Positions 7,450 through 61,720 of a stretch of DNA of 64,000 bases are shown piece after piece. The DNA comes from Sagittula stellata E-37 (lineage in GTDB: Bacteria; Pseudomonadota; Alphaproteobacteria; Rhodobacterales; Rhodobacteraceae). Under the pieces are notes generated by a model. The model saw nothing but the letters and a program-made list of their open reading frames with translations. It had not been told where the DNA came from and made no database searches. Every line of letters starts with the position of its first letter. Positions within the stretch are counted from its first letter, which is position 1. The position numbers and the translations under genes were made by a program. Where the stretch lies: assembly GCF_039724765.1 (NCBI RefSeq), contig NZ_CP155729.1:4039501-4103500 (forward strand), in the 5' to 3' direction.

Positions 7450-9192
7450 ATGACCGTTCCATCGACCCTGACGAACCGCCTGCATGCGCTGCTCATGCGC
7501 CTCTACCCCGACCACGACACCGAAGAGGTGACCGCCAGGGTCGTCGAGGCCTTCTGGCCCGAAGGCACGGATCCACGCGGACGCGCCCGCAAGCCCGGCA
7601 ACCAGCTCTGGAGCCAGAAGGACGCGCTGCTGATCACCTACGGCGACAGCCTGATCGACGGCGTCTACAAGCCGCTGGACCTGTTGCGCGACTTCCTTGG
7701 CCAGCACCTGAAGGGCGTGGTCAACGGCGTGCACATCCTGCCGTTTTTCCCCTTCACCTCGGACGACGGCTTTGCGGTGACCGACTACCGCAAGGTGAAC
7801 CCCTCGCTGGGCGACTGGCCCGACATCCAGCGCATCGCCTCGGAATGGGATCTTGCCTCCGACCTCGTGCTGAACCACGTCTCGTCGCAGGGCACGTGGT
7901 TCAACGCCTACCGGCAGGGGCAGAAGCCCTACGACGGGTTCTTCTTCGAGGCCTCGCCGGAGGACGACCTGTCGATGGTCGTGCGCCCGAGGACGACGCC
8001 GCTTCTGCAGGAGGTCGAGACGGCGAACGGCGTCAAGAACGTCTGGTGCACCTTCAGCCACGACCAGATCGACCTGAACTTCAAGAACCCCGAAGTCCTC
8101 TACGAGATCATCCGCATCATTCGTCTGCACATCGAGATGGGGGTGAAGATCGTCCGCCTCGACGCCGTGGCCTTCGTCTGGAAACAGCCCGGAACGACCT
8201 GCATCCACCTGCCGCAGACCCACGCCATCGTGCAGCTTCTGCGGGTGCTGGCGGACTTCGCCCGCGAACCGGTCGTGCTCTTGACCGAAACCAACGTGCC
8301 CAAGGCCGAGAACCTCAGCTACTTCGGCCAACTGAACGAGGCGCACTGGATCTACAACTTCCCGCTGCCGCCGCTGATCCTGCACGCCATGCTCTCGGGG
8401 GACGCGCATTTCCTGTCGAACTGGCTGCGCTCCATGCCGCCCGCGCCGCACGGCTGCGCCTACCTGAACTTCACCGCCTCGCACGACGGCATCGGGATGC
8501 GCCCCGCCGAAGGCCTGCTGCCGGACGAGGAAATCGCGCGCATGATCTCTACCGTGCAGGACAGCGGCGGGCGGGCGTCGATGCGGGCGCTGCCGAACGG
8601 CGGCACATCGGTCTACGAGCTGAACGCCACCTTCTTCTCGGCCCTGTCGCGGACCTATCGCGGCGACACCGCCAACCACATCGCGCGCTTCCTGTGTTCG
8701 CAGACCATCGTCATGTCGATCGAAGGGGTGCCCGCCTTCTACATCCACGCGATGCTGGGCACGGAGAACGACATCGACGGCGTCGAACGCCGTGGCATGA
8801 ACCGCGCCATCAATCGCCACCGCTGGGACTACACGGACCTGCGCAAGCGCATCAAGGACCCGGAGACCCCGCAGGGCCAGGTCCTGCCCGCCCTGAAGGA
8901 GCGGCTGAAGCTCCGCGCGAAACAGCCCGCCTTCCACCCCAACGCCACGAACTTCACGCTGAACGTCGACGACCGCGTGTTCTGCGTCTGGCGGCAGTCG
9001 ATCAACCGCGAGCAGTCGATCTTTGCCCTGCACAACGTGAGCGCCGAAACGGTGGACCTGCCGCCCCGCGCGCTCAACCTGATCGCGGACGAGGACTGGA
9101 TCGACCTGCTGTCTGGCGAGACGCTGCACCCCGAGGAGGACGGCGTGACGCTCGCCCCCTACCAGTGCCGCTGGATCACCAACCGGGGCTGA
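7450..9192 (+). CDS. GH13_18 alpha-glucosyl phosphorylase, probably glucosylglycerate phosphorylase
   Basis: Cytoplasmic retaining phosphorylase of 580 residues in the sucrose-phosphorylase subfamily of GH13. Catalytic residues visible: nucleophile Asp238 (VRLDAVAF), acid/base Glu280 (LLTETNVP) and transition-state Asp346 (TASHDGIG). Family members cleave sucrose, glucosylglycerol, sucrose 6-phosphate or glucosylglycerate with phosphate to give glucose 1-phosphate. Length exceeds classical sucrose phosphorylases (about 490-500) and matches the glucosylglycerate branch (about 560-580), and the locus 1.7 kb downstream encodes glucosylglycerate synthesis. I therefore infer that it degrades glucosylglycerate to glucose 1-phosphate and glycerate. 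The start ATG 7450 precedes a conserved N-terminal helix; an upstream ATG at 7417 is also in frame. Confidence 0.83.
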   Translation: MTVPSTLTNRLHALLMRLYPDHDTEEVTARVVEAFWPEGTDPRGRARKPGNQLWSQKDALLITYGDSLIDGVYKPLDLLRDFLGQHLKGVVNGVHILPFFPFTSDDGFAVTDYRKVNPSLGDWPDIQRIASEWDLASDLVLNHVSSQGTWFNAYRQGQKPYDGFFFEASPEDDLSMVVRPRTTPLLQEVETANGVKNVWCTFSHDQIDLNFKNPEVLYEIIRIIRLHIEMGVKIVRLDAVAFVWKQPGTTCIHLPQTHAIVQLLRVLADFAREPVVLLTETNVPKAENLSYFGQLNEAHWIYNFPLPPLILHAMLSGDAHFLSNWLRSMPPAPHGCAYLNFTASHDGIGMRPAEGLLPDEEIARMISTVQDSGGRASMRALPNGGTSVYELNATFFSALSRTYRGDTANHIARFLCSQTIVMSIEGVPAFYIHAMLGTENDIDGVERRGMNRAINRHRWDYTDLRKRIKDPETPQGQVLPALKERLKLRAKQPAFHPNATNFTLNVDDRVFCVWRQSINREQSIFALHNVSAETVDLPPRALNLIADEDWIDLLSGETLHPEEDGVTLAPYQCRWITNRG

Positions 9193-9227
9193 CCGCGAAA
9201 AAGCGACCGGACGGATTGTTGACCCGG

Positions 9228-9262
9228 CAGCAGGTCCCGACCCATCATGGGCCGACCTGCTG
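9228..9262 (+). terminator. Hairpin after the phosphorylase gene
   Basis: Stem CAGCAGGTC / GACCTGCTG (9 bp) with an inner CCCA-TCA-TGGG helix, 36 bases after the phosphorylase stop and just before the next gene. No U-run is present, so it may attenuate rather than stop transcription into the 9282 gene. Confidence 0.45.
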
Positions 9263-9281
9263 ACCAATACCGGACGACCTC

Positions 9282-10691
9282 ATGCCTTTCCGCTTCTTGG
9301 CCTCCCTCGCCTGCCTCCTTCTTCTGTCCGCGCCCGCGCAGGCCGCCGACATCACCATGGGCGACGATTGCGACGTCTACCTCTCCGGCCAGATCGTGAA
9401 GGGCGACGCCGACCGCTTCGGAGCATTGATGGACAGCGCGGCCTGCACCTATTCCACCCTGCACCTGTCTTCGCCCGGCGGCTCGGTGACCGAGGCGCTG
9501 GCCATCCCCCAGCACTTCAGCCGCACGACCACCGTGATCGACGCAGGTGAAACATGCCTGTCCGCCTGTTCGCTGATCTTCATGGCGGGCCACACCTGCG
9601 CCGGGGCACCCTACTCCTGCCAGCCCACGCGCGGGATGCACCCCACCGCGACGCTGGGCTTCCACGCGCCCTTCCTCCAGCCTGACCAGAAGCAGCAGCT
9701 CGTGCCGCTCGACCTGTCGTTCTCCGCCGCGCTCGACATCTTCGCCCAGATCCAGAGCGCGTTTTCCAAGCTCTCCTCGGTCGTGGCCTCCACCGGTTAC
9801 AAGCAGTCAATGATCCACCCCGACCTCTTCGCGCAGATGTTCAGCACGCCGCCGGAGGAGTTCTACACCATCACCACCAACGACCAGTTCTACAGTTTCG
9901 ACATCGGGTTGATGGACGACATCCCCAACACCGCCACCCCCGCCTTCGACCGGCAGCGCGCCGCGACCCTGTGCTATAACCTGCTCTATTCCACCTATCG
10001 CGGCTGGAACCATTCGGAGTTCGGCTTTGCCGATTACGACACCGGCGGGCAGGATTATTTCGACAGCGTCGCGAACCACGTCCAGCGACGCGACCCCGCC
10101 CCCTGGCTGGGCGACAACGTTAGCATCCCGGTGAACTTCGTGCAGTTCCGGAACATCAACCTGGGGATGGGCTGGACCGGCTGGTGCGAGATCAAGCCCT
10201 CGCCGGGATCCGGCACCGTGTCGGTCAACCTCTACCCACAAGAGGACATGCCCGCCGACAGCGACCGCGCCGATCTGCGGGCCTACATGCATTACAGCAT
10301 GGCCTGGCCCCCGCGCACGCCCGTCACCTCCGTCTCCTGGAAGGCGTCGGGCGGTGGCGCGGCGGCAGCCCAGACCTCCGTTCCGGGCCCCGACCCGGTG
10401 GCGCTGGCGCGCGCCTACTTCGACCGGCTCGGCAAGCGTGACGGAGGGGCGCCCGCAGCGCTCTGGATTCCGGAAAAGCGCGAGGCCATCGAACGTGCCG
10501 CCGCAGGCATCTGCGATGCGAGCGTCGTCGAGGCCTCCGATGCGGGTGTGTCGGGCGGCTCTGCGCTGGTCCAGTTGCGCGCCCGCGTGACCGGCTGCGG
10601 CGCGTCATCAGGCGAGGTGTACGCGCTTCGTATGACGCTGGTGTCCGGCCCGGACGGCTGGCGCATCTCGGCCCTGAACAGCGCGGATTGA
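9282..10691 (+). CDS. Secreted ClpP/crotonase-fold protein (COG3904-like) with an extra C-terminal domain
   Basis: Protein of 469 residues with a clear signal peptide (residues 1-21, ending AQAA). The mature N-terminal half shows LSSPGGSVTEALAIP and CLSACSLIFMAG, the glycine-rich and Ser-containing motifs of the periplasmic ClpP-like (COG3904) group, so a serine-hydrolase fold is likely although no protease activity is established for this group that I can cite. Cysteines around residues 25-125 suggest disulfides, in keeping with export. The last ~110 residues (ARAYFDRLGKRDGG onward) form a separate domain that I cannot assign. It sits between the phosphorylase and the synthesis genes but no functional link is evident. 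Confidence 0.7.
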   Translation: MPFRFLASLACLLLLSAPAQAADITMGDDCDVYLSGQIVKGDADRFGALMDSAACTYSTLHLSSPGGSVTEALAIPQHFSRTTTVIDAGETCLSACSLIFMAGHTCAGAPYSCQPTRGMHPTATLGFHAPFLQPDQKQQLVPLDLSFSAALDIFAQIQSAFSKLSSVVASTGYKQSMIHPDLFAQMFSTPPEEFYTITTNDQFYSFDIGLMDDIPNTATPAFDRQRAATLCYNLLYSTYRGWNHSEFGFADYDTGGQDYFDSVANHVQRRDPAPWLGDNVSIPVNFVQFRNINLGMGWTGWCEIKPSPGSGTVSVNLYPQEDMPADSDRADLRAYMHYSMAWPPRTPVTSVSWKASGGGAAAAQTSVPGPDPVALARAYFDRLGKRDGGAPAALWIPEKREAIERAAAGICDASVVEASDAGVSGGSALVQLRARVTGCGASSGEVYALRMTLVSGPDGWRISALNSAD

Positions 10692-10757
10692 CCCGTTTCG
10701 GATCGCCCGGGAGGCCTCGTTAACCTCTTTTTTTCGCTGCGGCGCAGAAAGATTACC

Positions 10758-10791
10758 AACCGGCCGGTTCGAGGGGTCGAACCGGCCGGTT
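10758..10791. terminator. Strong symmetric hairpin between convergent genes
   Basis: Perfect 15-bp stem AACCGGCCGGTTCGA / TCGAACCGGCCGGTT with a GGGG loop. Each arm contains the self-complementary GAACCGGCCGGTTC-type core, so alternative folds exist. It lies 67 bases after the 9282-10691 gene and 146 bases before the end of the opposite-strand gpgS gene, so it could act for either strand. No flanking T-tract. Confidence 0.6.
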
Positions 10792-10936
10792 CACCCCCTA
10801 CGGGTTGTTAAGCATGGTGAACAGGTGGTTGATCCATTGTGGATCGCGTCGCGGACGGCCCCACATCTGCGCGTTGCAGGGCATCGCACGCGGCCTTAAT
10901 CCCTCCGCGCGCCGCATTAAGATGAACGGATATTCA

Positions 10937-12169
10937 TCAGAACGGCTTAGGCGCGAACTCCGCGTTGTCGGCGGCCACCAGCGACCGAAGCTCCGACACC
11001 AGCCCCTGATCGGCGGCGTTCACCCGGCTCCAGTTCGGGATGAACGGCGCATCGTTGGGCTTGGCCAGGAAGGTGTGCCCCGCGACCATGATGTTCTCCG
11101 CGAACAGCTCGATGGTCCGTTCCTCGCGGTGCCGGTCCAGCGTCAGGCCGTTCATCTTGGCGTCGTTGTCGTAGAACTCCAGCAGGTCCAGCGCGACCCG
11201 GTAATACGTGGCCTTCAGCGCCCGGAAAGAGTTGGCGGTAAAGATCGTCCCATCCGCCGCCAGCTTGCGGAAGATCGCCTTGCAGATGTCGGTGGACATG
11301 CGGTTCAGACCCGCCGCCGCGTCGCCTTCGCTTTCGTCCTGATGCTTGTGATCGTAGGCATCGGCGATCTCCACCTGGCAGACCGTGTGCCGCCCGCTGT
11401 TGCGCCAAACCTCTGACAACACGCCGATTTCCAACCCCCAGTCGGAGGGGATGCGCAGGTCCGGCAAGAGGCCAGTGCGCAGCGCGAACTCGCCCGACAG
11501 CGGGTAGCGGAAAGCGCGCAGGTAGTCGATGTAGTCCCGGTCCCCGATCACCCGCTTAAGCGCGATCAGGAGCGGCGAGACCAGCAGCCTGGTCACCCGC
11601 CCGTTCAGCTTGCCGTCGCCGACACGCGGATAGAACCCCTTCGACAACTGGTAGCGGAAATTCGGATTGACCACCGGATAGACCAGCCGGGCCAGCATCT
11701 CGCGGTCGTAGGTGACGATGTCGCAATCGTGCAGCGCCATGACCGCCGTATCCGCGCAAGAGATCATGTAACCCATGCAGGTCCACATGTTCTTGCCCTT
11801 GCCCGGCTCGTCCGGGGCCAGCCCCATCTCTTCGAGCCGCGCCATGTAGGACTTCATCCTGGGGCTGTCGTTCCAGAGGACCACATGATCTTGGGGCAGC
11901 CGGGAAAAGAAATCGCGCGCCCGGCGGAACTGGTCCTCGTCCGCACGGTCCAGCCCGATGATGATCCGGTGCAGGTAGCTGACCTGGCTCAGCTCGTCGA
12001 TGATGTTCGACAGCGCCGGGCCTTCCAGTTCGGAATAGAGCGACGGCAGAACGAGGCTGATCTTGCGCGTCTGGGCGAAGGTCTCGATCTCGTAGACCAG
12101 TTCCTCGATCGGGCGCTGCCTCAGGTTGTGGAACTGGGCGATGTTGCCGTTCTGGTGAAAGTCAGCCAT
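10937..12169 (-). CDS. gpgS: Glucosyl-3-phosphoglycerate synthase (GT81 family)
   Basis: Cytoplasmic glycosyltransferase of 410 residues that transfers glucose from an NDP-glucose donor to 3-phosphoglycerate, the first step in glucosylglycerate synthesis. The sequence shows the proteobacterial/marine GpgS pattern: N-terminal MADFHQNG and IAQFHNLR, LPSLYSELEGPAL (41-53), IGLDRADEDQFRRA (71-84), metal/nucleotide motif DCD (148-150) in ALHDCDIVTYDREML, and SDWGLEIGVLSEV with AYDHKHQ further on. I chose ATG 12169, which matches the family N-terminus and overlaps the upstream phosphatase stop by 8 bases; an ATG at 12199 adds ten unconserved residues. Coupling with the phosphatase gene supports the pathway. 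A mannosyl donor is less likely because the mannosyl enzymes belong to other GT families. Confidence 0.9.
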   Translation of the reverse strand: MADFHQNGNIAQFHNLRQRPIEELVYEIETFAQTRKISLVLPSLYSELEGPALSNIIDELSQVSYLHRIIIGLDRADEDQFRRARDFFSRLPQDHVVLWNDSPRMKSYMARLEEMGLAPDEPGKGKNMWTCMGYMISCADTAVMALHDCDIVTYDREMLARLVYPVVNPNFRYQLSKGFYPRVGDGKLNGRVTRLLVSPLLIALKRVIGDRDYIDYLRAFRYPLSGEFALRTGLLPDLRIPSDWGLEIGVLSEVWRNSGRHTVCQVEIADAYDHKHQDESEGDAAAGLNRMSTDICKAIFRKLAADGTIFTANSFRALKATYYRVALDLLEFYDNDAKMNGLTLDRHREERTIELFAENIMVAGHTFLAKPNDAPFIPNWSRVNAADQGLVSELRSLVAADNAEFAPKPF

Positions 12170-12950
12170 GCGCGGGATCCTTCGCGTCGTAATCGTCAAG
12201 AAGCGACAGCATCGCCGCCGCCCAACCTGCGGGGCCGGTCAGGTCAGTGCGCAGGATGCGCCCCGCGTCCTCGCCCTCCAGCAGGGGCAGGCCCGGCCCG
12301 TGATCGTTGCGCACGACGACGCCGATGTCAGCCGTCTGCAGCATCTCGATGTCGTTGGGCGCGTCGCCAAGCGCAATTGTCCGGGATGCGCCCATTTCGC
12401 GGGCAAGTTCAGCCATGGCATCCGCCTTCGTGCGGCCCAGCGAGAGGGTCAGGAAACGGCCGCCGCTGCGCCCGCGCACGCCATACATGCCAAGCCCGGA
12501 CAGGAAGGCGGCGCGGGTGTCGTCCGCGCCCGACCAGATCCCCGGTTCGGAGAAACACCGCTGCCCGGCGCGTCTTGCGCCGTCGAGGCCAAGTCCCGTC
12601 ACCTCCGCGATCTCCTCTGCGGTCATGTCGGCGAAACCCCGGAACCCGGCCCGGAGTTCCGGCGCCAGATCGGCAAGGGCGCGGCGGATGTGGGCGTGAT
12701 CCCCGGCGTCCTGCGCCACACCGTCGGCGGGCCGGTAGAACCCGGCGCCGTTCTCCACGATGGCGGGCGTGTCGCCAAGGCCAAGATCGGCGTGAAGCGG
12801 GGCAACTTCCGCGGCGGTCTTGGAGGTCGCGAGGACCAGCGGAACGCCCCGTTCCTTCAGCGCATCGAGCGCCGGACGCGCCGCCTCCCAGGAATACGTG
12901 TCATGGTCCAGCAAGGTGCCGTCGAGATCGGTGAACACGATCAAACCCAT
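12162..12950 (-). CDS. Glucosyl/mannosyl-3-phosphoglycerate phosphatase (HAD superfamily, MpgP-like)
   Basis: HAD phosphatase of 262 residues that removes phosphate from glucosyl-3-phosphoglycerate to give glucosylglycerate. Motif I is TDLDGTLLDHDTYSW (nucleophile Asp8, acid/base Asp10), motif II lies in VLATSKT (39-45), and motif IV is GDAPND (195-200). The DHDTYSW phrase and cap-domain layout are those of the MpgP subfamily that acts on hexosyl-3-phosphoglycerates. Its stop overlaps the start of the gpgS gene by 8 bases, so the two are co-translated. ATG 12950 was preferred over an in-frame ATG at 13007 because the family begins just before the first strand. In actinobacteria the same step uses an unrelated histidine phosphatase. 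Confidence 0.87.
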   Translation of the reverse strand: MGLIVFTDLDGTLLDHDTYSWEAARPALDALKERGVPLVLATSKTAAEVAPLHADLGLGDTPAIVENGAGFYRPADGVAQDAGDHAHIRRALADLAPELRAGFRGFADMTAEEIAEVTGLGLDGARRAGQRCFSEPGIWSGADDTRAAFLSGLGMYGVRGRSGGRFLTLSLGRTKADAMAELAREMGASRTIALGDAPNDIEMLQTADIGVVVRNDHGPGLPLLEGEDAGRILRTDLTGPAGWAAAMLSLLDDYDAKDPAHG

Positions 12951-13050
12951 AAGACGACCTCTGCCCGCTGTCCGTCTTACAAGTATGGCGCAGGTGCATG
13001 CCGACAACCACCGTCCATGCTGCGGTGCGGCTGAAACTGCGGCGGAGAGG

Positions 13051-13683
13051 TCACGGATGCCCTTCCCAGGAGATGGTCAGGTCGACGTTGCCAAGGTTGT
13101 CCGCCACCCGATGCGCGTTCGGAATGTCGTTGCTCAGCGCCTTTTCGCGCGCCGCCGCGTGGTCGTACTCGTAGCTCACCCAACGTTCGATCAGCCGCCG
13201 CTCCAGTTCCGACATCGGAACGGACAGGTAAACGGTCAGGTCCCACAACTCTACCAATGCGCGCCACGGGTCCTCGGCAAGGCACAGGTAGTTGCCCTCG
13301 ACGATCACCGTCTCGGTCTCCGGGCCGATGCGCTCCGCTCCGGCGATGGCGATTTCCCGGGTACGGTCGAAGACCGGCAGTATGACCTCGTCCTCTTGGG
13401 CGACACGGGCGAGGCAGGCTCGGAAACCGCCGAAGTCGAAGGTCTCCGGCGCACCCTTGCGCGGCAGCAGGCCAGCGGGCCGCAGCAACCGGTCGTCGAG
13501 GTGAAATCCGTCCATCGGCATGACCGCCGCATTGGGTGTCCGCGCTGCAACCACATGCGCCAGCGTCGATTTCCCGGAACCCGGCGCCCCGGCCAGAGCG
13601 ACCAGCCTCCGCCGCCCTCGTGCCGGTGTCTCGGCGATCCGCTCTGCAACCAGCGCCGCGCTTTTCTGAACGTCCATGGCCAC
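13051..13683 (-). CDS. P-loop nucleoside/nucleotide kinase family protein (FrcK/PRK-like)
   Basis: Small kinase-fold protein of 210 residues with Walker A AGAPGSGKST at about residues 30-39, then VMPMDGFHLDD, the phosphoribulokinase/uridine-kinase-like motif that carries the catalytic Asp, and VIVEGNYL (Walker B region). This is the group often annotated as fructose-transport kinase or nucleoside triphosphate hydrolase in rhizobia and roseobacters; the substrate is not established from sequence. A second ATG at 13677 is an alternative start. It lies 100 bases upstream of the HAD phosphatase on the same strand, so it could be the first gene of the glucosylglycerate synthesis unit, but the gap leaves this open. 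Confidence 0.8.
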   Translation of the reverse strand: MAMDVQKSAALVAERIAETPARGRRRLVALAGAPGSGKSTLAHVVAARTPNAAVMPMDGFHLDDRLLRPAGLLPRKGAPETFDFGGFRACLARVAQEDEVILPVFDRTREIAIAGAERIGPETETVIVEGNYLCLAEDPWRALVELWDLTVYLSVPMSELERRLIERWVSYEYDHAAAREKALSNDIPNAHRVADNLGNVDLTISWEGHP

Positions 13684-13741
13684 CCCCTTCCCGATTGGTG
13701 AGGGTCCGCGCCGGGCTTGTCAACGCAGAGGGGCTTTCAGC

Positions 13742-14509
13742 TCAGCCGAAGAGACGACCGCGCGCCCGGATGGCAGCCAGTGCGACGACGGCCAGATAGG
13801 CCCAGTCGAGCAAAACCAACAGATACCACGGGTGGGTGAAGCTGAACCCGATCACCGTGACCGTGGCAAACAGGATGACCGCGATCATGCGGCGCGGCAC
13901 CTTGATCGCCTTCGGGGACGGCGTCTTCAGCTTGGAGATCATCAGCACACCGATCAGCGCGAGCCAGAGGGCGACCATGGCCGGTGCCTCCCCCGCGTCC
14001 CATCCGCCGGCAAGCATCATGAAAACCGGCAGAAGGCCCAGCATGGCCCCCGCAGGTGCAGGCACACCGACGAAGTGGCGTTTCGGCCCGGCACTCTCAT
14101 CGGCCTGCCCCGACATGACGTTGAACCGCGCGAGCCGCAGGCAGGTGGCGGCGGCGAACAGCAGCGCAAAGACCCAGCCGAACCCGCCGGTATGGGCCAG
14201 GTGCACCTGGTAGACGACAACCGCCGGTGCGACGCCGAAGCACAGGAAATCGGACAGCGAGTCCAGTTGCGCCCCCATCGGCGACTCGGCCTTCAGCTTG
14301 CGGGCGAGCAACCCGTCGAGGCCGTCCGCCAGCGCGGCGATCAGGATGGCGAAGACCGCGGCCCCGAACCGTCCCTCCATCGCGAACCGGATGGCCGTGA
14401 AGCCAAAGCTCATGCCGGTCAGCGTGACCATGTTGGGCAGGAGCATCAGCAGAGAGACCTGGCTGCGGTCCTCCGCCTGTGAGTCCGGCTCGGGGGGGAG
14501 ATCCGACAT
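13742..14509 (-). CDS. pssA: CDP-diacylglycerol-serine O-phosphatidyltransferase
   Basis: Integral membrane enzyme of 255 residues that makes phosphatidylserine from CDP-diacylglycerol and serine. The CDP-alcohol phosphatidyltransferase signature D-G-x2-A-R-x8-G-x3-D-x3-D is complete: DGLDGLLARKL, then MGAQLDSLSDFLCFG. About six to eight hydrophobic segments follow, with the first at MLLPNMVTLTGMSFGF. The gene starts 3 bases after the stop of psd on the same strand, so the two steps of phosphatidylethanolamine synthesis form one operon. Length fits the short type II membrane form found in alphaproteobacteria. Confidence 0.95.
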   Translation of the reverse strand: MSDLPPEPDSQAEDRSQVSLLMLLPNMVTLTGMSFGFTAIRFAMEGRFGAAVFAILIAALADGLDGLLARKLKAESPMGAQLDSLSDFLCFGVAPAVVVYQVHLAHTGGFGWVFALLFAAATCLRLARFNVMSGQADESAGPKRHFVGVPAPAGAMLGLLPVFMMLAGGWDAGEAPAMVALWLALIGVLMISKLKTPSPKAIKVPRRMIAVILFATVTVIGFSFTHPWYLLVLLDWAYLAVVALAAIRARGRLFG

Positions 14510-14512
14510 GGC

Positions 14513-15196
14513 TCAGCCTTCTCCGGTTTCGGCGGTCAGATCGGCGATGACCGTTTCGCCCGCAACCATCGTCTGGCCGATGCGGACCAGCGACGTGGCG
14601 CCGGGCGGCAGGTAGATGTCGAGACGGGAGCCGAACCGGATCAGGCCGAACCGCTCGCCGCGCTCCAGCGTATCGCCTTTCTTGGTCCAGCACAGGATAC
14701 GGCGCGCCACGAGACCTGCGATCTGGACCACGCCGTAGCGGCGCCCGTCCGGCAGGGTCACGGCAAGGCCGTTGCGTTCGTTGTCCTCCGACGCCTTGTC
14801 GAGCGAGGCGTTGAGGAATTTGCCCGGCCGGTAAGCGACGGTATCGACCGTCCCGGCGGTCGGCAGCCGGTTCACATGGCAGTTGAAGACCGACATGAAC
14901 ACAGAGATGCGCATCATTTCCGCATCGCCCAGACCCAGCTCTGCCGGGGGAATGGCGGGTTCCAGCAGCGACACGATCCCGTCCGCAGGCGATACCATGA
15001 CGTCCGGGCGGTTCGGCGTCACACGCTCCGGATCGCGGAAGAAGTAGTAGACCCAGACCGTCACGCCAGCGGCAATCCACCCCAGCGGTTCCCACACGAG
15101 GAACAGGACGACCGCGATCGCGGCTGCTATGGCAACGAATTTCCGCCCTTCCGGGTGCATCGGCTTGACGAAGGTGGACAGCATGGAGACAGACAT
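14513..15196 (-). CDS. psd: Phosphatidylserine decarboxylase proenzyme
   Basis: Membrane-associated pyruvoyl enzyme of about 227 residues that turns phosphatidylserine into phosphatidylethanolamine. The short-form family is recognised from [12 protein letters not shown] near the N-terminus, two hydrophobic helices, [27 protein letters not shown] and the self-cleavage site [11 protein letters not shown], where the Ser becomes the pyruvoyl group. I chose ATG 15196 (GGGG six bases upstream); in-frame ATG codons at 15232 and 15184 are alternatives, and 15184 would match relatives that begin just before [10 protein letters not shown]. It is the first gene of the psd-pssA operon. Confidence 0.94.
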
Positions 15197-55517: not shown

Positions 55518-55808
55518 GGCGGTTCCTCCACCCGGAAAACGCCCCGGCGGTGGAAGGGTTCCTGCTGCGCTGCATTCCGGGCGGATGACGTTCCGTCGTG
55601 CGCACGTCGCGATCGAGCGCATCTGGACGGCTTTGGCGATGCACCGCGTCCGGGTTGTTTGCGATCCGGGACGGTGTTCGGCCACGCGCCCTTGGGTATC
55701 GTTGCCGGCGCCGACGGATCAACGCGCATACACTCTTCGCGGGAAGTCGACACTCATTTTATCGCGCCCGGAGATTGACGGACAAGCCGTATCCGTGCTT
55801 AACGATCC

Positions 55809-56000
55809 GCGATGGTTCCCGGAACGCCAGCAAGCCAACCGGGATGAAAAGGGAACACGGTGAGGATGTCCGCAAGGTGCCGAATCCGCGACTGCCCCCG
55901 CAACTGTGAGCGGAGAGCGATCCTGAGAACACCACTGGGCCGGTAGGCGGCTCGGGAAGGTTCGGGAAAGCGTTGACCCGCAAGTCAGGAGACCTGCCAT
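55809..56000 (+). promoter_or_regulatory. Cobalamin (B12) riboswitch
   Basis: Adenosylcobalamin-type aptamer. Conserved pieces are in the right order: GATGAAAAGGGAAC (from 55843), GCCCCCGCAACTGTGAGCGG-type core (CTGCCCCCGCAACTGTGAGC, about 55892-55911), ACCACTGG (55931-55938), and the B12 box AGTCAGGAGACCTGCC (55983-55998). The 5' boundary is approximate. A short hairpin CGGCGCG-CTC-CGCGCCG (56004-56020) follows and could be the expression platform, with a weak T-stretch after it or by hiding a ribosome-binding site. It precedes the ferredoxin-like gene and the ABC operon on the same strand, so these are expected to be repressed when B12 is plentiful. Confidence 0.95.
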
Positions 56001-56063
56001 CTCCGGCGCGCTCCGCGCCGCAGTCACTTTTAACCGGGCGGGGTGTCCGGCAGGAGATGTGCT

Positions 56064-56198
56064 ATGTTTGGACGGCTCTTTGTGCCCGATGTCATCGCTG
56101 GTCTGCCCGCCCCGCATTTGTGCGGAGGGCACCATGGCAGATGCACGGATAATTCCCCTGAGACGACACGACGACGGTTGCGGCGCGGGCCGCTTTGA
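56064..56198 (+). CDS. Possible 44-codon leader ORF between riboswitch and ferredoxin gene
   Basis: Frame of 44 residues beginning MFGRLFVPDVIAGL with AGGAG seven bases before the ATG, as good a ribosome-binding site as that of the downstream gene. It contains a His/Cys cluster, HLCGGHHGRC, and ends inside the ferredoxin gene, whose start it overlaps. The opening MF-x-RLF...IAGL faintly recalls the start of CbtA cobalt-transporter proteins, which often follow B12 riboswitches, so it could be a decayed cbtA remnant, a true small metal-binding leader or chance. Only the initiation signals are strong evidence. Confidence 0.3.
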   Translation: MFGRLFVPDVIAGLPAPHLCGGHHGRCTDNSPETTRRRLRRGPL

Positions 56199-56964
56199 GG
56201 GTCCGCCCGTGGAATGGGTTCTCTTTGCCTGTTCGTCGGCCAACCTGAGCGCAGGCGGTTTCCACCGACTGGAGGCGATCTGCGCCGCGGCGACGGAACG
56301 CCCCCACATGCTCATCCGCCTAGAAGACATGGGCCGGAGCCTGTTCGAGGCGCTGGACGAGATGCGGCGCGGCGGCGCCCGCGCGATCCGGCTGCAACCC
56401 ATCGGACTGCCGTTTCCAGAGAGCCTTCTGGCCTGGCTTCCCGGCGTTCTGGCCGACTGGTCTCTACGACCGGTCAATGCGGCCATCGGCGTGACACTCG
56501 GCCCAGAGCCATCCCGCATGGATGCCGGCCCCACCGAGATGCTGCGCGACCTGCTTGCCGCGCCTTCGACGTCGGTCGAAAATGTGAAACCCGCGCTCGG
56601 CAAGCCCGGCTGGGACACCCCTCCCGATTTCGACTTTCATCTGCTGGTCTGCACCGGGCCGCGTTGCCAGATGCGCGATGCCGCGAGTCTCAGCCATGTC
56701 CTCAAGGCCGAATGCGCCGAGGCGGGCATCGCGAAGCGCTGCCTGACGACGACCACCGGCTGCATCTTTCCCTGCAACAAGGGGCCCGTCGTCGCGGTCT
56801 ACCCGCTAGGCGACTGGTTCCACGTACCGGACCGCGCGGCAGCCCGACGCCTCGTGCGTGAGGTGCTTTGCGCGGGGCGCGGACTGCCTGACCTGCACAT
56901 CCACACCGCCCGGCTCAGCCAGCCCAGTCAACACACGACGCCCCACAGGAGCACCATATCATGA
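56134..56964 (+). CDS. CbiX-like / thioredoxin-like [2Fe-2S] ferredoxin fusion protein, B12-riboswitch controlled
   Basis: Protein of 276 residues in two parts. The C-terminal half has Cys173-x4-Cys178 and Cys210-x3-Cys214 (VCTGPRCQ and TTGCIFPCNKGP), the ligand pattern of thioredoxin-like [2Fe-2S] ferredoxins. The N-terminal half (about 25-112) resembles the sirohydrochlorin cobaltochelatase (CbiX) fold in SLFEALDEMRRGGARAIRL and following helix, but the metal-binding His of CbiX (normally in H-G-S after the first strand) is replaced by ACSS, so chelatase activity is doubtful. GGAGGG lies five bases before ATG 56134. It follows a cobalamin riboswitch and overlaps the ABC binding-protein gene by ATGA. 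A role in cobalt handling or corrinoid reduction is inferred. Confidence 0.7.
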   Translation: MADARIIPLRRHDDGCGAGRFEGPPVEWVLFACSSANLSAGGFHRLEAICAAATERPHMLIRLEDMGRSLFEALDEMRRGGARAIRLQPIGLPFPESLLAWLPGVLADWSLRPVNAAIGVTLGPEPSRMDAGPTEMLRDLLAAPSTSVENVKPALGKPGWDTPPDFDFHLLVCTGPRCQMRDAASLSHVLKAECAEAGIAKRCLTTTTGCIFPCNKGPVVAVYPLGDWFHVPDRAAARRLVREVLCAGRGLPDLHIHTARLSQPSQHTTPHRSTIS

Positions 56965-58496
56965 GACACCTTGCGACCACGCTGGCCCTCGCCGCCCTTA
57001 CTTTTGGCCAGCCCGCCCCGGCGCAGGAGGCCGATCAGCCGATCCGCGTGATTACGTCGTTCCAGATCGACAGCATGGACCCCGAGTCCGAGGGTTTCTG
57101 GTTCCAGGAATTCGGCGTGGCCGAGTTGCTGATGGAATTCCAGCGTGATGGCTCCGTGGCGCCCTGGCTGGCCGAAAGTCTGGAACAGGTGGACGACCTG
57201 ACCTGGGTTATCACGCTCAACAAGGGGGTGACGTTCCAGAACGGCCGCCAACTGGACGCGGATGCGGTGAAGCGGCTGATGGACTTCCGGCTGGCGAACA
57301 AGGCGTCGCTGCAAGGCGTCGTGCCGCCAGAAACGACCTTCGACGTCACTGGCCCGCTGGAAATCACCGTGAAGACACCGGTGCCGCTGCCCGAGTTCCC
57401 GAACGTGCTGGCCCACGAAAGCTATTTCCTGATCTACGATCTCGATGCCGTGGAGGCCGCGAACGGGGACTGGGAGGCGCTGGAACATGCCGGTATCTAT
57501 ACGGGCCCCTACGAGGTGACCGACCTGACTGACGCGGCCCTGACCGCCACCCGCAACGAAAACTACTGGCGTGGTACGCCGGCCATGCCGGGTGTTACCG
57601 TCACCTTCGTGACCGACCTCAATGCCCGGGTGCTGGCGATCCAGAACGGCGAAGGGGATATCGCGCTTTATCCGCAGATCTCGGCCAAGCCGGTCTACGA
57701 CGCCACGCCGAACGTGAACCTCGCCTTGGGCGACCTGTCCACCGGCGGCTATGCGGCCTTCATGAACACCGAAGAGGGGCCGCTTGCGGACGTCGCCGTC
57801 CGGCGCGCCCTGATGAAGTCCATCGACTATGCCGAGGTGTCCGATGCGGTGTTCCGGGGCGCCACGGCAGAAGCAGAGGGGCTGTATTCCACGGCCTTCC
57901 CCTGGGCCGTGGCGAACTACGAACACGACCCCGAAGAGGCCGCGCGCCTGCTCGACGAGGCTGGCTGGACCCTGGACGGCGACATCCGGACGAAGGACGG
58001 CGCCCCCCTGACGGTCAAATTGGTGATCTACCCGCAACAGCCCGACCTCGTGCCCCTGTCGAACGCGCTGCAGGCCTATCTGCGCGCGCTTGGTGTCGGC
58101 ACCGAAATACTGTCGGTGGACGACGTCAACGAGGCGATAACCTCCGGTTCGATCGACTGGGACATGGCGCTGCTGGGCAACGGGTCGGCCACCGTCGGCG
58201 CGGTGCAGGGTTTTCTCGCCCGCTATCTGGCCTCGGACGGCAACCGGAACTATGCGGGGTATTCCAACGCCCGCATGGACGACCTGATCGCGGCGCTTGC
58301 CGTGGAGGTGGACAAGACCGCAAGAAACGAGATCCTGCGCGAGATTCAGGGCATCCTGGTCGAAGACGATCCCTACGTGTTCAACGTGACCATGCTGCGC
58401 CCGCGGGCGCTGGTGTCGGACGCCTGGTCGACCTACGAGCCCGGTGTCGCCTGGCGGCATATCGGCTGGCAGACCGCGCCCGACGCGGTGCGGTGA
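56961..58496 (+). CDS. ABC transporter substrate-binding protein, peptide/nickel family, B12-regulated
   Basis: Periplasmic protein of 511 residues of the SBP_bac_5 family (peptides, nickel/cobalt complexes, opines). Signal peptide residues 1-21 (ending PAPAQ). Family phrases include ITSFQIDSMDPESEG, VAPWLAESLEQVDDLTWVI and LNKGVTFQNGRQLDADAVKR, which resemble NikA-type more than OppA-type proteins. It lies downstream of a cobalamin riboswitch and is coupled to the ferredoxin-like gene by ATGA. I therefore infer cobalt (as a chelate) or a B12 precursor as ligand; peptides cannot be excluded on sequence alone. Confidence 0.88.
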   Translation: MRHLATTLALAALTFGQPAPAQEADQPIRVITSFQIDSMDPESEGFWFQEFGVAELLMEFQRDGSVAPWLAESLEQVDDLTWVITLNKGVTFQNGRQLDADAVKRLMDFRLANKASLQGVVPPETTFDVTGPLEITVKTPVPLPEFPNVLAHESYFLIYDLDAVEAANGDWEALEHAGIYTGPYEVTDLTDAALTATRNENYWRGTPAMPGVTVTFVTDLNARVLAIQNGEGDIALYPQISAKPVYDATPNVNLALGDLSTGGYAAFMNTEEGPLADVAVRRALMKSIDYAEVSDAVFRGATAEAEGLYSTAFPWAVANYEHDPEEAARLLDEAGWTLDGDIRTKDGAPLTVKLVIYPQQPDLVPLSNALQAYLRALGVGTEILSVDDVNEAITSGSIDWDMALLGNGSATVGAVQGFLARYLASDGNRNYAGYSNARMDDLIAALAVEVDKTARNEILREIQGILVEDDPYVFNVTMLRPRALVSDAWSTYEPGVAWRHIGWQTAPDAVR

Positions 58497-58497
58497 C

Positions 58498-59439
58498 GTG
58501 ATCCGGGTCGCCCTTCGACGCCTTGCCCAGGCCGCGCTGACCGCGCTTGCCGCCAGCCTGCTGGTCTGGGCGATGCTGCCGCTTGCGCCGGGCGACCCGG
58601 CGTACCGGATCCTGAAATCGCAGGCGCCGGAACATGAACCCACCCCCGCCGAGATCGCCGACCTGCGCGAGGACATGGGCCTCGACCGGCCGTTCCCGGT
58701 ACGATACGCGGCCTGGCTTGGGCGCGTGGTGCAGGGCGATCTCGGCGTGTCGTGGCGGACCGGCCAGCCGGTCTCGGACGAGATCGCTCGACGCCTTCCG
58801 GCGACCCTCACCTTGCTGGGCCTTGCACTGGCCGTCTCCGTTTTGGTGGCGCTGGCCCTCGCGCTGATCTCGGCGGCATTCCGGGATCGCTGGCCGGACA
58901 GGCTCATCCGTGCCTACACGCAGGTCGGTGCGGCATTGCCGACGTTTCTGTTCGGCCTTCTGGCGCTGCAATACGTCGTCGTGGGTGCCGGTGTGGGCCG
59001 GGTGCTGTCGGGCGGCACGCTCGGCATGGCCATCCTGCCCGCGTTGATCATCGGCGTCGACCGCGCGGCGGGGTGGACGCAGCTTTTGCGGGCCTCGCTG
59101 ATCGACGCCATGAACAGCGGCTACGCCCAGGTGTCCCGCGCCCGTGGCGCACGATCACGGCGCACCCTGCTGATCCACGCCCTACCCAACGCGGCCCTGC
59201 CTTTCCTGACAGCCATCGGCGTGTCCATCGGGGCACTGCTGGGCGGTTCGCCGATCATCGAGGAGCTGTTCACCTGGCCCGGCCTTGGCAGCTACACGCT
59301 GGCGGCGCTGACAGCGCGGGACTTTCCGGTGATCCAGGCCTTCGTGCTTGTCTCGGCCGGTCTGTACGTCGTCTCCAGCCTGCTGATCGACCTGGCCGCC
59401 ATCGCCATAGACCCCCGACTGCGCGCGGCCCGGGCATGA
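58498..59439 (+). CDS. ABC transporter permease, NikB/DppB-like
   Basis: Inner-membrane permease of 313 residues. It starts with GTG at 58498, one base after the binding-protein stop (TGACGTG), giving VIRVALRRLAQ as the family-like N-terminus. The segment LPLAPGDPAYRILKSQAP and DLREDMGLDRPFPVRYAAWLG match the periplasmic part of DppB/NikB proteins, and the coupling loop AQVSRARGARSRRTLLIH is present. About six helices. Its stop overlaps the next permease start by ATGA. Confidence 0.91.
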   Translation: MIRVALRRLAQAALTALAASLLVWAMLPLAPGDPAYRILKSQAPEHEPTPAEIADLREDMGLDRPFPVRYAAWLGRVVQGDLGVSWRTGQPVSDEIARRLPATLTLLGLALAVSVLVALALALISAAFRDRWPDRLIRAYTQVGAALPTFLFGLLALQYVVVGAGVGRVLSGGTLGMAILPALIIGVDRAAGWTQLLRASLIDAMNSGYAQVSRARGARSRRTLLIHALPNAALPFLTAIGVSIGALLGGSPIIEELFTWPGLGSYTLAALTARDFPVIQAFVLVSAGLYVVSSLLIDLAAIAIDPRLRAARA

Positions 59440-60326
59440 GCGCGATCTGGCCCCGTCTAGGCGTGGCGCGCGCCCGTCCGCCCGACACTACGCCGACCCG
59501 TAGGCTGCTTCCCCGGTTGTGGCGGCACCGCAGCGGGCGTGCGGGGCTTATCCTTGGCGGTCTGCTGCTGGCTTTCGCGCTGATCGGCATGGTCTGGACA
59601 CCCCATGAACCCGACTGGCCCGACTACGCCGTGGCTTTGCAGGGTCCCGGCACGACACACCTGCTTGGCACCGACGACACCGGGCGCGACCTGCTGTCCC
59701 GGCTGATGGACGGCGCGCACCGGACTCTGGGCGCGGCGTTGACGGTGCTGGGCGGGGTGTTTGCCATCGGTCTTGTCTATGGCACGGTCTCGGGACTGGC
59801 CGGAGGACCGGTCGACACGGTGATGATGCGTGTCGCCGACGTGATGATGAGCCTGCCCGGACTTGTCCTCGCCTTCGCCGTGATCGGCGTGCTCGGACCC
59901 GGTTTCGTCAACCTGCTGATCGCGCTGATCGTCGCGGACTGGGCCTGGTATGCCCGGCTGGCGCGCTCGATGGCCATCGGCAGCGGGAACAGGCCCGACG
60001 TGATCGCCGCGCGCATGGCCGGTGTGCCGGGCTGGCGGATCGTGACCCGCCACATCCTGCCGGGGATCGCGCTGCATCTCGGCGTCGTCGCCTCGCTTGC
60101 GTTGGGCGGTATGGTGGGCGCGATTTCGGGCCTTTCGTTCCTTGGCCTCGGCGTGCAGCCGCCCCGGGCGGAATGGGGGGCGATGCTGTCGGGGGCGCGC
60201 CTGTTCTTCGCGGTCGCGCCATGGCTGTTGTGGGGACCCGCTGTCCTGATCTTCCTCTCGGTCCTGTCCGCGAACCTGATCAGCAACGGCCTACGCGACG
60301 TGCTCTCTGTGGACGGGCGGCGATGA
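59436..60326 (+). CDS. ABC transporter permease, NikC/DppC-like
   Basis: Inner-membrane permease of 296 residues with about six helices. LLGTDDTGRDLLSRLMDGAHRT is the conserved NikC/DppC phrase before the core domain. The coupling loop is RPDVIAARMAGVPGWRIVTRH, and SGLSFLGLGVQPPRAEWG lies near the C-terminus, as in all DppC-type permeases. ATG 59436 overlaps the preceding stop and the end overlaps the ATPase start by ATGA. Confidence 0.91.
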   Translation: MSAIWPRLGVARARPPDTTPTRRLLPRLWRHRSGRAGLILGGLLLAFALIGMVWTPHEPDWPDYAVALQGPGTTHLLGTDDTGRDLLSRLMDGAHRTLGAALTVLGGVFAIGLVYGTVSGLAGGPVDTVMMRVADVMMSLPGLVLAFAVIGVLGPGFVNLLIALIVADWAWYARLARSMAIGSGNRPDVIAARMAGVPGWRIVTRHILPGIALHLGVVASLALGGMVGAISGLSFLGLGVQPPRAEWGAMLSGARLFFAVAPWLLWGPAVLIFLSVLSANLISNGLRDVLSVDGRR

Positions 60327-61720
60327 CTCCGGTCCTCGACTGCCGCAACCTCACCGTGTCCTACGGAACCGGCCCCACGGTCACCGGTGTCAGCTTTTCC
60401 CTGAAAGCGGGCGAATGCCTTGCGCTGGTCGGCGAGTCCGGCTCCGGCAAGTCGACGATTGCACAGGCGGTCCTCGGGCTTCACAGGCCCGGGACCCGGG
60501 TTTCAGGGCGGCTTTCCCTGTTGGGGCACGACCTCATCTCTGCCAGCGAGGACGAACTCACCCGCCTGCGGGGCACCCTTGTCGGCTACGTTGCACAGGA
60601 CCCCTATTCGGCCTGCGATCCGCTGCGCACCGTCGGGCACCACGTGGGCGAAGCCTGGCGAAGCCGTGGCCTCAGGCCCGCCCGCGATTGCATCGCCAAG
60701 CGCCTGACGGCCACGGGGATAGACGACGCGCCACACTTTGCGACGAAGGCCCCGCATTGCTGGAGCGGAGGGATGCTGCAACGTGCCTGCATCGTGGCCG
60801 CCACCGCCCATGTGCCGACGCTTCTTGTGGCGGACGAGCCGACAAGCGCGCTGGACGCCCACCGCGCCGAAGAGATCCTGGCGACGTTACGCGCGAGCGG
60901 CTCGGCGATCCTGCTCATCAGCCACGATCTCGAACTCGTGCGCCGCCACGCGGACCGGGCCGCAATCCTGCACGAGGGACGGATCGTCGACGACGTGCCT
61001 GTATCCGCGCTCGACGATGGGGCACGGCATGTGGCGACACGCCGGCTGGCCGGCGCGGTGAGCTCTCCTCCGGTCATGCGGCCGCAGCCGCCGGGCGAGG
61101 TTCTGGTGGCCTGCAAGGACGTCACACGCAGCTACGCCGGAGCCCCCCGGACCATCGGCCCGCTCAGCTTCGAGGTTCGTGCCGGGGCCTGCATCGGGCT
61201 CGCCGGCCCGTCCGGATCGGGCAAGTCGACCGTGCTGCGCACGCTGGCCGGGCTCGATACGCCCGATACGGGACAGGTTTGGCGTGCCCCCGAACTCAGC
61301 CGTGCCGGTGCGATCATGCCCGTCTTTCAGAACCCGGCCGCCAGCCTCAACCCGTTCTGGCCGGTTTGGCGGACGATCAGCGAACCTGCGTCCGTCACCA
61401 GGCGCATCCGCACCGAGGACCGCAAGGCAATCGCGCGCGACCTGCTTTGCAAGGTCGGGCTGGACCGCGCCGACATCAATGCCCGCCCTTCCGAATTCTC
61501 GCTTGGTCAGTGTCAGCGGATCGCCATTGCCCGCGCCGTTGCCGCGCAGCCCCGTCTGTTGGTCGCCGACGAGCCGACAAGCGCGCTCGACACGGTCTCG
61601 CGCGCCATGGTGGCCGACCTGCTGGCCAAACTGGTGGAAGAGGGAATGGCCCTTGTCGTTGCAAGCCACGATCCGTGGCTGCACCAGCGACTGAATGCGG
61701 AAACCCTCACGCTCGGTTGA
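60323..61720 (+). CDS. Fused ABC transporter ATPase (NikD-NikE / DppD-DppF-like)
   Basis: ATPase of 465 residues with two ABC domains, much shorter than the OppDF fusion in this window (608) because each domain lacks the C-terminal oligopeptide-transporter extension. Domain 1: Walker [10 protein letters not shown], signature CWSGGMLQR, Walker B LLVADEPTSALD. Domain 2: Walker A GPSGSGKST, signature FSLGQCQR (a Leu where the motif LSGGQ has its first Gly), Walker B LLVADEPTSALD. The altered second signature suggests asymmetric ATP sites. The missing tails argue for a non-peptide ligand, as in NikDE. It is the last gene of the riboswitch operon. Confidence 0.9.
   Translation: MTPVLDCRNLTVSYGTGPTVTGVSFSLKAGECLALVGESGSGKSTIAQAVLGLHRPGTRVSGRLSLLGHDLISASEDELTRLRGTLVGYVAQDPYSACDPLRTVGHHVGEAWRSRGLRPARDCIAKRLTATGIDDAPHFATKAPHCWSGGMLQRACIVAATAHVPTLLVADEPTSALDAHRAEEILATLRASGSAILLISHDLELVRRHADRAAILHEGRIVDDVPVSALDDGARHVATRRLAGAVSSPPVMRPQPPGEVLVACKDVTRSYAGAPRTIGPLSFEVRAGACIGLAGPSGSGKSTVLRTLAGLDTPDTGQVWRAPELSRAGAIMPVFQNPAASLNPFWPVWRTISEPASVTRRIRTEDRKAIARDLLCKVGLDRADINARPSEFSLGQCQRIAIARAVAAQPRLLVADEPTSALDTVSRAMVADLLAKLVEEGMALVVASHDPWLHQRLNAETLTLG

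Follow-up and report, generated by a model that had tools for sequence, protein, structure and literature searches.

The window analysed here, a 64-kb stretch of the Sagittula stellata E-37 genome, carries five open genes packed on the same strand directly downstream of a complete cobalamin (B12) riboswitch. The features of this operon are as follows.

55796..56015, forward strand: cobalamin riboswitch aptamer RF00174, complete (132.6 bits, E 4e-33)
56124..56129, forward strand: GGAGGG ribosome-binding site of gene 1, four bases ahead of the ATG
56134..56964, forward strand: gene 1, CbiX-fold domain and thioredoxin-like [2Fe-2S] ferredoxin domain
56961..58496, forward strand: NikA-like periplasmic binding protein (SBP_bac_5), ATGA overlap with gene 1
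58498..59439, forward strand: NikB/Opp2B-like permease, GTG start one base past the stop of the binding protein gene
59436..60326, forward strand: NikC-like permease, ATGA overlap with the preceding permease
60323..61720, forward strand: fused NikD–NikE-like double ATPase, ATGA overlap with the preceding permease

Three junctions are ATGA overlaps and the fourth, between the binding protein and the first permease, is a one-base gap, in keeping with the coupled or near-contiguous arrangement given in a preliminary description of this DNA. The riboswitch named there is likewise complete, with all 189 model positions covered (1–189) and a score far above the gathering score of 31.5, although it begins 13 bases further upstream than had been proposed. 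It is the sole match above the gathering score within the window. Terminator-like sites numbered four against a shuffle mean of 3.0, one of them inside gene 1 at 56205, and none was listed between the aptamer and gene 1. An intrinsic terminator was thus rejected as the switch output, and the GGAGGG ribosome-binding site of gene 1 is the likely control point. The predicted fold of the leader is no stronger than that of shuffled sequences (z −0.66) and is uninformative on the switch output.

The four downstream genes constitute an importer of the peptide/nickel ABC family in one operon. Pfam assigns SBP_bac_5 (5.8e-60) to the binding protein, BPD_transp_1 to each of the two permeases, and ABC_tran to two stretches of the fused ATPase, as had been described. 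The binding protein possesses an N-terminus that, judged by eye, resembles a signal peptide, and its nearest solved relatives are NikA proteins (3t66, 4ofj (SaNikA) and 4oer). Near the loop that in Escherichia coli NikA bears the nickel-binding His416, its family instead maintains an invariant Arg429-Asn430 pair. Both halves of the ATPase retain the Walker A, Walker B and His-loop motifs, and the second signature motif reads FSLGQ. The usual oligopeptide C-terminal domain, oligo_HPY, was absent among the best 25 of 27 Pfam rows for the ATPase, which upholds the earlier remark that this protein lacks a peptide-transporter tail. All subunits score below the curated NCBIfam Nik cut-offs: 245.1 against 600 for the binding protein, 270.5 against 447 (NikB) and 286.6 against 350 (Opp2B) for the first permease, 250.9 against 335 for the NikC permease, and 267.6 against 332.55 (NikE) and 261.9 against 318.7 (NikD) for the fused ATPase.

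The start of gene 1 was taken as the ATG at 56134, four bases past GGAGGG, because relatives align from this codon and the alternative, an upstream in-frame GTG at 56059, has its AGGAG just two bases ahead. A short open reading frame in another frame (56064–56198) spans this start. The protein itself falls below every Pfam cut-off, so the assignment of its two domains, which agrees with the CbiX-like and [2Fe-2S] parts described before, rests on its family and on a structure model: a chelatase fold of the CbiX type at residues ~25–144 is followed by a thioredoxin-like ferredoxin fold at residues ~165–261, with four cluster cysteines present. Five cysteines are invariant (173, 178, 203, 210 and 214). 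The protein encoded in the window does not match DUF1636 in Pfam; 12 of the 57 family members do at E up to 1, the best at 0.0054.

The label chelatase-like holds for the fold and not for the catalytic residues. At aligned residues 32 and 97, presumably the positions of the two catalytic CbiX histidines, none of the 57 family members carries histidine, which sets the family apart from the CbiX/CfbA/SirB class II chelatases, and the same holds for a 22-sequence set (4 gaps at residue 32). The comparison used 7 of 15 CbiX templates; the first histidine is present in five of these, and the remaining two are the second halves of double domains. With both histidines absent, we rejected the view that gene 1 encodes a functional tetrapyrrole chelatase like those already known. 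The solved CbiX-fold relatives bind tetrapyrroles, going by their entry titles.

The genome encodes four B12 riboswitches, among which the aptamer of the importer operon scores best. The other three precede a DUF4198-CbiM-NikL-CbiQ-CbiO ECF transporter, BluB, and DUF1636-CobW-CobN, and the genome possesses cob genes for B12 synthesis as well as a urease alpha domain. A single TonB receptor was detected by PF00593, for which the best model is the Fiu siderophore receptor (147.6, below the cut-off of 686). The PF00593 and model search, which could miss a diverged receptor, found no BtuB in the genome, and a search run without a positive control returned no match to a CbtJ/BtuF-type binding protein.

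The linkage to riboswitches and cob genes that was raised in the preliminary description is borne out among relatives. A close binding protein occurs in 4 of 295 family genomes, and all four also carry gene 1 and the riboswitch; one of them (G085) has an in-frame stop in gene 1. Of 23 gene 1 loci, 20 have a riboswitch ahead of the gene in the same orientation, and the importers of the 23 are of the Nik/Dpp type in 8, of the CbtJKL/BtuFCD type in 14, and untyped in one. The riboswitch and the CbiX–ferredoxin gene form the constant core, and the importer type is exchanged. In three distant loci (L078–L080), the relatives adjoin cobW-cobN-cobO and a TonB receptor is encoded between the riboswitch and gene 1; for the L078 copy the best model is the B12 receptor, at 150.6 far below the cut-off of 599.7. 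Other distant relatives lie near other cob genes, a Gemmobacter DUF1636-CbtL-J-K operon with a riboswitch adjoins cob genes, and nikR is found near an Azospirillum relative. Urease genes were absent from nine annotated neighbourhoods of relatives. Among the best 120 of 129 clusters for gene 1 and the best 120 of 138 for the binding protein, at least 37 gene 1 clusters have a longest contig equal in length to that of a binding-protein cluster, an agreement that we do not count as proof. Set A1 comprises 56 of the 120 listed gene 1 proteins and set A2 comprises 53 of the 120 listed binding proteins. The tree omits L026 (in-frame stop in gene 1) and includes, unlabelled, L030 (gene 1 cut by a contig end). 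A class-wide search with gene 1 gave matches in 111 of 385 genomes, nearly all on the ferredoxin part alone; by the listed ranges, both domains were matched only in S. stellata itself and in G309, G454, G551, G326 and G606.

Taking these observations together, we infer that this is probably a B12-repressed operon for cobalt acquisition, in which cobalt likely enters as a small chelate and is met in the cytoplasm by a partner protein for redox chemistry or handover. Low coenzyme B12 would, through the riboswitch, permit expression of the operon. The NikA-like binding protein would then bind Co(II), most likely on a small chelator that passes porins, and the chelate would be driven inward by the permease pair and the fused ATPase. 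Within the cell, the gene 1 protein would free the cobalt or pass it on: electrons could come from its [2Fe-2S] domain, and the CbiX-like domain, devoid of the catalytic histidines, could be the site where the chelate or the metal is held, after which cobalt would proceed to CobW and the CobN chelatase. Cobalt is favoured because the riboswitch lies directly upstream and also precedes other cobalt and B12 genes of the genome, because the binding protein consistently co-occurs with gene 1 and the riboswitch, because relatives adjoin cob genes, and because the nearest solved relatives of the binding protein are NikA proteins. The identity of the alternate importer points the same way, as CbtJKL of Sinorhizobium meliloti is reported to be a B12-switched Co(II) transporter (Cheng et al. 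2011, as described in PMC7689651). Against this reading, a second cobalt importer needs a reason in a genome whose ECF cobalt transporter itself lies behind a B12 riboswitch, and the sub-threshold NCBIfam scores of all importer subunits weaken it further, as may the Arg429-Asn430 pair of the binding protein family.

A corrinoid cargo, the other possibility raised in the preliminary description, is weakened by the single Fiu-like TonB receptor; we consider it unlikely that the importer brings in cobinamide, a cobamide or a corrinoid fragment and that the CbiX-fold/ferredoxin protein reduces the corrinoid or strips its upper ligand. The tetrapyrrole-binding relatives of the CbiX fold would suit such a role. 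The lack of a CbtJ/BtuF-type match and the genome's own cob genes argue against it, and we know of no corrinoid-binding SBP_bac_5 protein. A precedent for it, which in turn weakens the cobalt reading, is the B12-switched Anabaena cluster btuB2-alr4030-btuFCD, in which alr4030 is ferredoxin-like; this cluster is described as supporting cyanocobalamin uptake, which is lower in a btuD mutant (PMC10878165). Riboswitch, ferredoxin-like protein and ABC importer are common to both systems, whereas the Anabaena cluster possesses its own outer-membrane receptor, measured cobalamin uptake and a BtuFCD-type importer. Given this cluster and the TonB receptor in L078–L080, which likewise counts against cobalt, the partners of gene 1 may handle corrinoids in some lineages.

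That the importer feeds nickel enzymes, with the riboswitch incidental, appears very improbable. Its subunits are most like NikA–E, a urease alpha domain is found in the genome, and nikR near the Azospirillum relative would fit nickel; however, B12 repression of nickel uptake has no obvious logic, the genomic associations are with riboswitches and cob genes, and the nine annotated neighbourhoods of relatives are devoid of urease genes. The importer may transport both cobalt and nickel. A metal-free role, in which the importer takes up peptides or some other organic substance required at low B12, is very doubtful: SBP_bac_5 proteins are mostly peptide carriers and the CbiX-like domain lacks catalytic residues, but the solved relatives are NikA rather than Opp/Dpp proteins, the oligopeptide tail is missing from the Pfam rows cited above, and importers of the CbtJKL/BtuFCD type take the same place behind gene 1.

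Returning to cobalt acquisition, how B12 producers obtain this scarce metal is poorly understood, as is its route to CobW and the chelatase without poisoning Fe–S enzymes. The retention of a redox/chelatase-fold protein behind the B12 riboswitch despite importer exchange suggests that a step following import has gone unrecognised. As a tentative possibility, the gene 1 protein may be a dedicated cobalt-entry factor that unloads cobalt from the chelate delivered by the importer and hands it to CobW/CobN, the constant heart of a system for which at least two unrelated ABC importers serve as interchangeable doors. The riboswitch together with the CbiX–ferredoxin gene provides a simple handle for finding cobalt importers now annotated as peptide or iron transporters.

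Among the titles and abstract openings of the literature matches listed, which include few subscription papers and so speak to these sources rather than to absence from print, none described a B12 riboswitch followed by a CbiX–ferredoxin gene and a NikABCDE importer, and our search returned no paper naming DUF1636 together with cobalamin. The pairing of importer and riboswitch is itself not new, since NikABCDE systems of Clostridium tetani and Desulfitobacterium hafniense are described as lying behind predicted B12 riboswitches, set apart from nickel ones (PMC2667541, citing Rodionov 2006). Compared by description only, these Firmicutes share the importer family and the predicted riboswitch with the window operon, and a CbiX–ferredoxin gene is not mentioned in that description. 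NikABCDE nickel importers are built from the same subunit families, whereas the window operon adds a B12 riboswitch, a fused ATPase and a redox gene, with subunits below the NCBIfam cut-offs. The operon resembles CbtJKL, as described, in its predicted riboswitch control, in its probable supply of cobalt to a B12 producer, and in its ABC importer served by a binding protein in the periplasm, and CbtJKL-related operons carry DUF1636 or a protein of the gene 1 type. CbtJKL is of the BtuFCD/FecCD type with an unrelated binding protein, in contrast to the SBP_bac_5 and BPD_transp_1 composition found here. In our analysis, a riboswitch precedes cbtJKL on S. meliloti pSymB, and tblastn identified no gene 1 relative in the surrounding 30-kb stretch of pSymB in strain 1021. 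Relative to thioredoxin-like [2Fe-2S] ferredoxins and to DUF1636, the gene 1 protein is distinguished by an additional invariant cysteine (203) and by its fusion to the CbiX-like domain.

The only Rfam match above gathering score in the scanned window is a complete cobalamin riboswitch (55796–56015), downstream of which five packed genes run on the same strand to the operon end at 61720. The first of these, gene 1, joins a CbiX-fold domain to a thioredoxin-like [2Fe-2S] ferredoxin domain (CbiX-Fd); its start is most likely the ATG at 56134, preceded by GGAGGG, and at 56059 an alternative in-frame GTG lies just two bases from an AGGAG. A 44-codon ORF in another frame (56064–56198, forward strand) overlaps the gene 1 start; its ATG follows an AGGAG at a distance of seven bases. 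Family matches assign the remaining genes:

56961–58496, after gene 1, riboswitch strand: NikA-like binding protein
Same operon, riboswitch strand: NikB-like permease and NikC-like permease
Operon end, riboswitch strand: one protein with two fused ATPase domains

The nearest genes on either side lie on the opposite strand and look unrelated to the operon: upstream one for an acyl-CoA dehydrogenase, downstream one for an M24 peptidase.

Single-sequence and profile searches agree that the solved structures nearest to the binding protein are those of NikA (profile search: 3t66, 2.9e-72; SaNikA, 2.6e-61; 4oer NikA, 4.3e-52; dipeptide-binding protein, 2.9e-31); the protein scores well under the NCBIfam NikA cut-offs. 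Arg429 and Asn430, invariant across the 54 aligned sequences, presumably adjoin the loop that carries the nickel-binding His416 in E. coli NikA. A chelate gripped via side chains, with the metal not bound directly, would fit this sequence pattern.

Of 295 family genomes, 11 contain a relative of gene 1 and four a close relative of the binding protein (E ≤ 1e-80), the S. stellata genome counted in both; all four belong to the eleven and keep the order riboswitch, gene 1, importer. One of the four, locus L026 (genome G085), shows an in-frame stop in its gene 1 copy. Counterparts of each of the two proteins are also recorded under general names for Salipiger mucosus, Pseudooceanicola, Jannaschia and Devosia. 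Of 23 gene 1 loci examined, 20 have a same-strand riboswitch above gathering score upstream; none was found at L032, whose contig stops ~25 bases past the first gene, L039 or L081.

Two unrelated kinds of ABC importer accompany gene 1. A NikABCDE/Dpp-like importer is found at 8/23 loci (the window, L009 of Maritimibacter, L022, L024, L026, L033 of Roseinatronobacter, plus two divergent loci, L032 and, from Paracoccus aminophilus, L034), and a CbtJKL/BtuFCD-like importer at 14/23 (L023, L025, L027–L029, L031, L035, L036, L039, L077–L081), with the binding protein alone beside gene 1 at L078–L080, where no CbtK or CbtL match adjoins CbtJ. The remaining locus, L030, is cut by a contig end; it is nearer the window's type, and its genome (G214) carries a second gene 1 copy with a CbtJKL-type importer (L027). 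On the gene 1 tree (22 sequences) importer type changes a minimum of four times, at least three being forced by well-supported branches. Because some changes fall among very divergent members (L032, L034, L081), the firm result is that the importer type behind gene 1 is not fixed, the exact number of changes being less secure. At L034 (plasmid pAMI1, 6675–10995), a B12 riboswitch precedes a gene 1 relative (28% identity), an SBP_bac_5-type protein and two permeases; the unit has no annotated ATPase of its own, and a complete Dpp-type operon adjoins.

The S. stellata genome contains four cobalamin riboswitches, that of the window operon and three others:

Riboswitch 2: before a DUF4198-CbiM-NikL-CbiQ-CbiO transporter (L006, C1:2452000-2470000, 8350–12106)
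Riboswitch 3: before BluB, placed by comparing coordinates
Riboswitch 4: before DUF1636-CobW-CobN, then more genes with cob-type domains

The ECF transporter at L006 is likely a second cobalt system. Given these riboswitch-linked cobalt and cob genes, together with encoded CobO and CobQ, S. stellata is very likely a B12 maker whose ECF cobalt transporter is already B12-controlled. The genome yielded no match to CbiX, and none to a CbtJ/BtuF-type binding protein in a search run without a positive control. Directly after riboswitch 4 (L008, C1:3815000-3834500, 12853–14613), the thioredoxin-ferredoxin-like DUF1636 gene precedes cobW and cobN; it is a single-domain cousin of the gene 1 C-terminal half in a chelatase operon.

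The window importer probably carries cobalt or a small cobalt chelate. A review describes S. meliloti CbtJKL as a transporter of Co(II) controlled by a B12 riboswitch (PMC7689651), and our analysis found a riboswitch before cbtJKL on pSymB. No gene 1 relative was found in the 30-kb stretch around these genes, so gene 1 is dispensable for some such importers. Plasmids of Gemmobacter aquarius and S. meliloti 1132 carry riboswitch-DUF1636-CbtL-J-K, adjoined in Gemmobacter by cobF, cobA and further cob genes. At L078–L080, three class-level relatives from one family, the riboswitch precedes a TonB receptor, then gene 1, then CbtJ, and divergent cobW, cobN and cobO adjoin.

A corrinoid is a rather unlikely substrate for the window importer. 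Corrinoids may nonetheless be carried by part of the wider family, since cyanocobalamin uptake was lower in btuB2 and btuD mutants of an Anabaena B12-switched cluster (btuB2, ferredoxin-like alr4030, btuFCD; PMC10878165), and the L078 TonB receptor matches the B12-receptor model best, far under cut-off. Corrinoid uptake should require a BtuB-like receptor, as in E. coli, and none was detected in the S. stellata genome, where the one TonB-receptor barrel best matches the siderophore receptor Fiu, below cut-off; this makes a corrinoid less likely here. Nickel, favored by nikR near the Azospirillum relative and by a urease alpha domain encoded in S. stellata, is improbable, and an organic compound unrelated to cobalt, corrinoid or nickel is equally so.

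For gene 1, the conserved cluster cysteines suggest that it may move electrons, and a chelatase fold devoid of the catalytic histidines suggests chelate or metal binding; its recurrence beside importers points to a step just past entry. CbtJKL and, in Anabaena, a ferredoxin-like neighbor (PMC10878165) are already known, and NikABCDE behind a B12 riboswitch has a prior report for two Firmicutes (PMC2667541). The window's combination, and importer exchange behind a riboswitch-CbiX-Fd core, turned up in none of the titles or abstract openings listed by the literature searches. The Azospirillum version of the locus has a TonB receptor and nikR close by: on an A. brasilense plasmid (L035, 1–10732), a CobN-like protein, a TolQ-like protein, DUF2149, a B12 riboswitch, an ABC importer, a (2Fe-2S) protein, the TonB receptor and NikR form what looks like a putative cobalt/nickel chelate uptake cluster.
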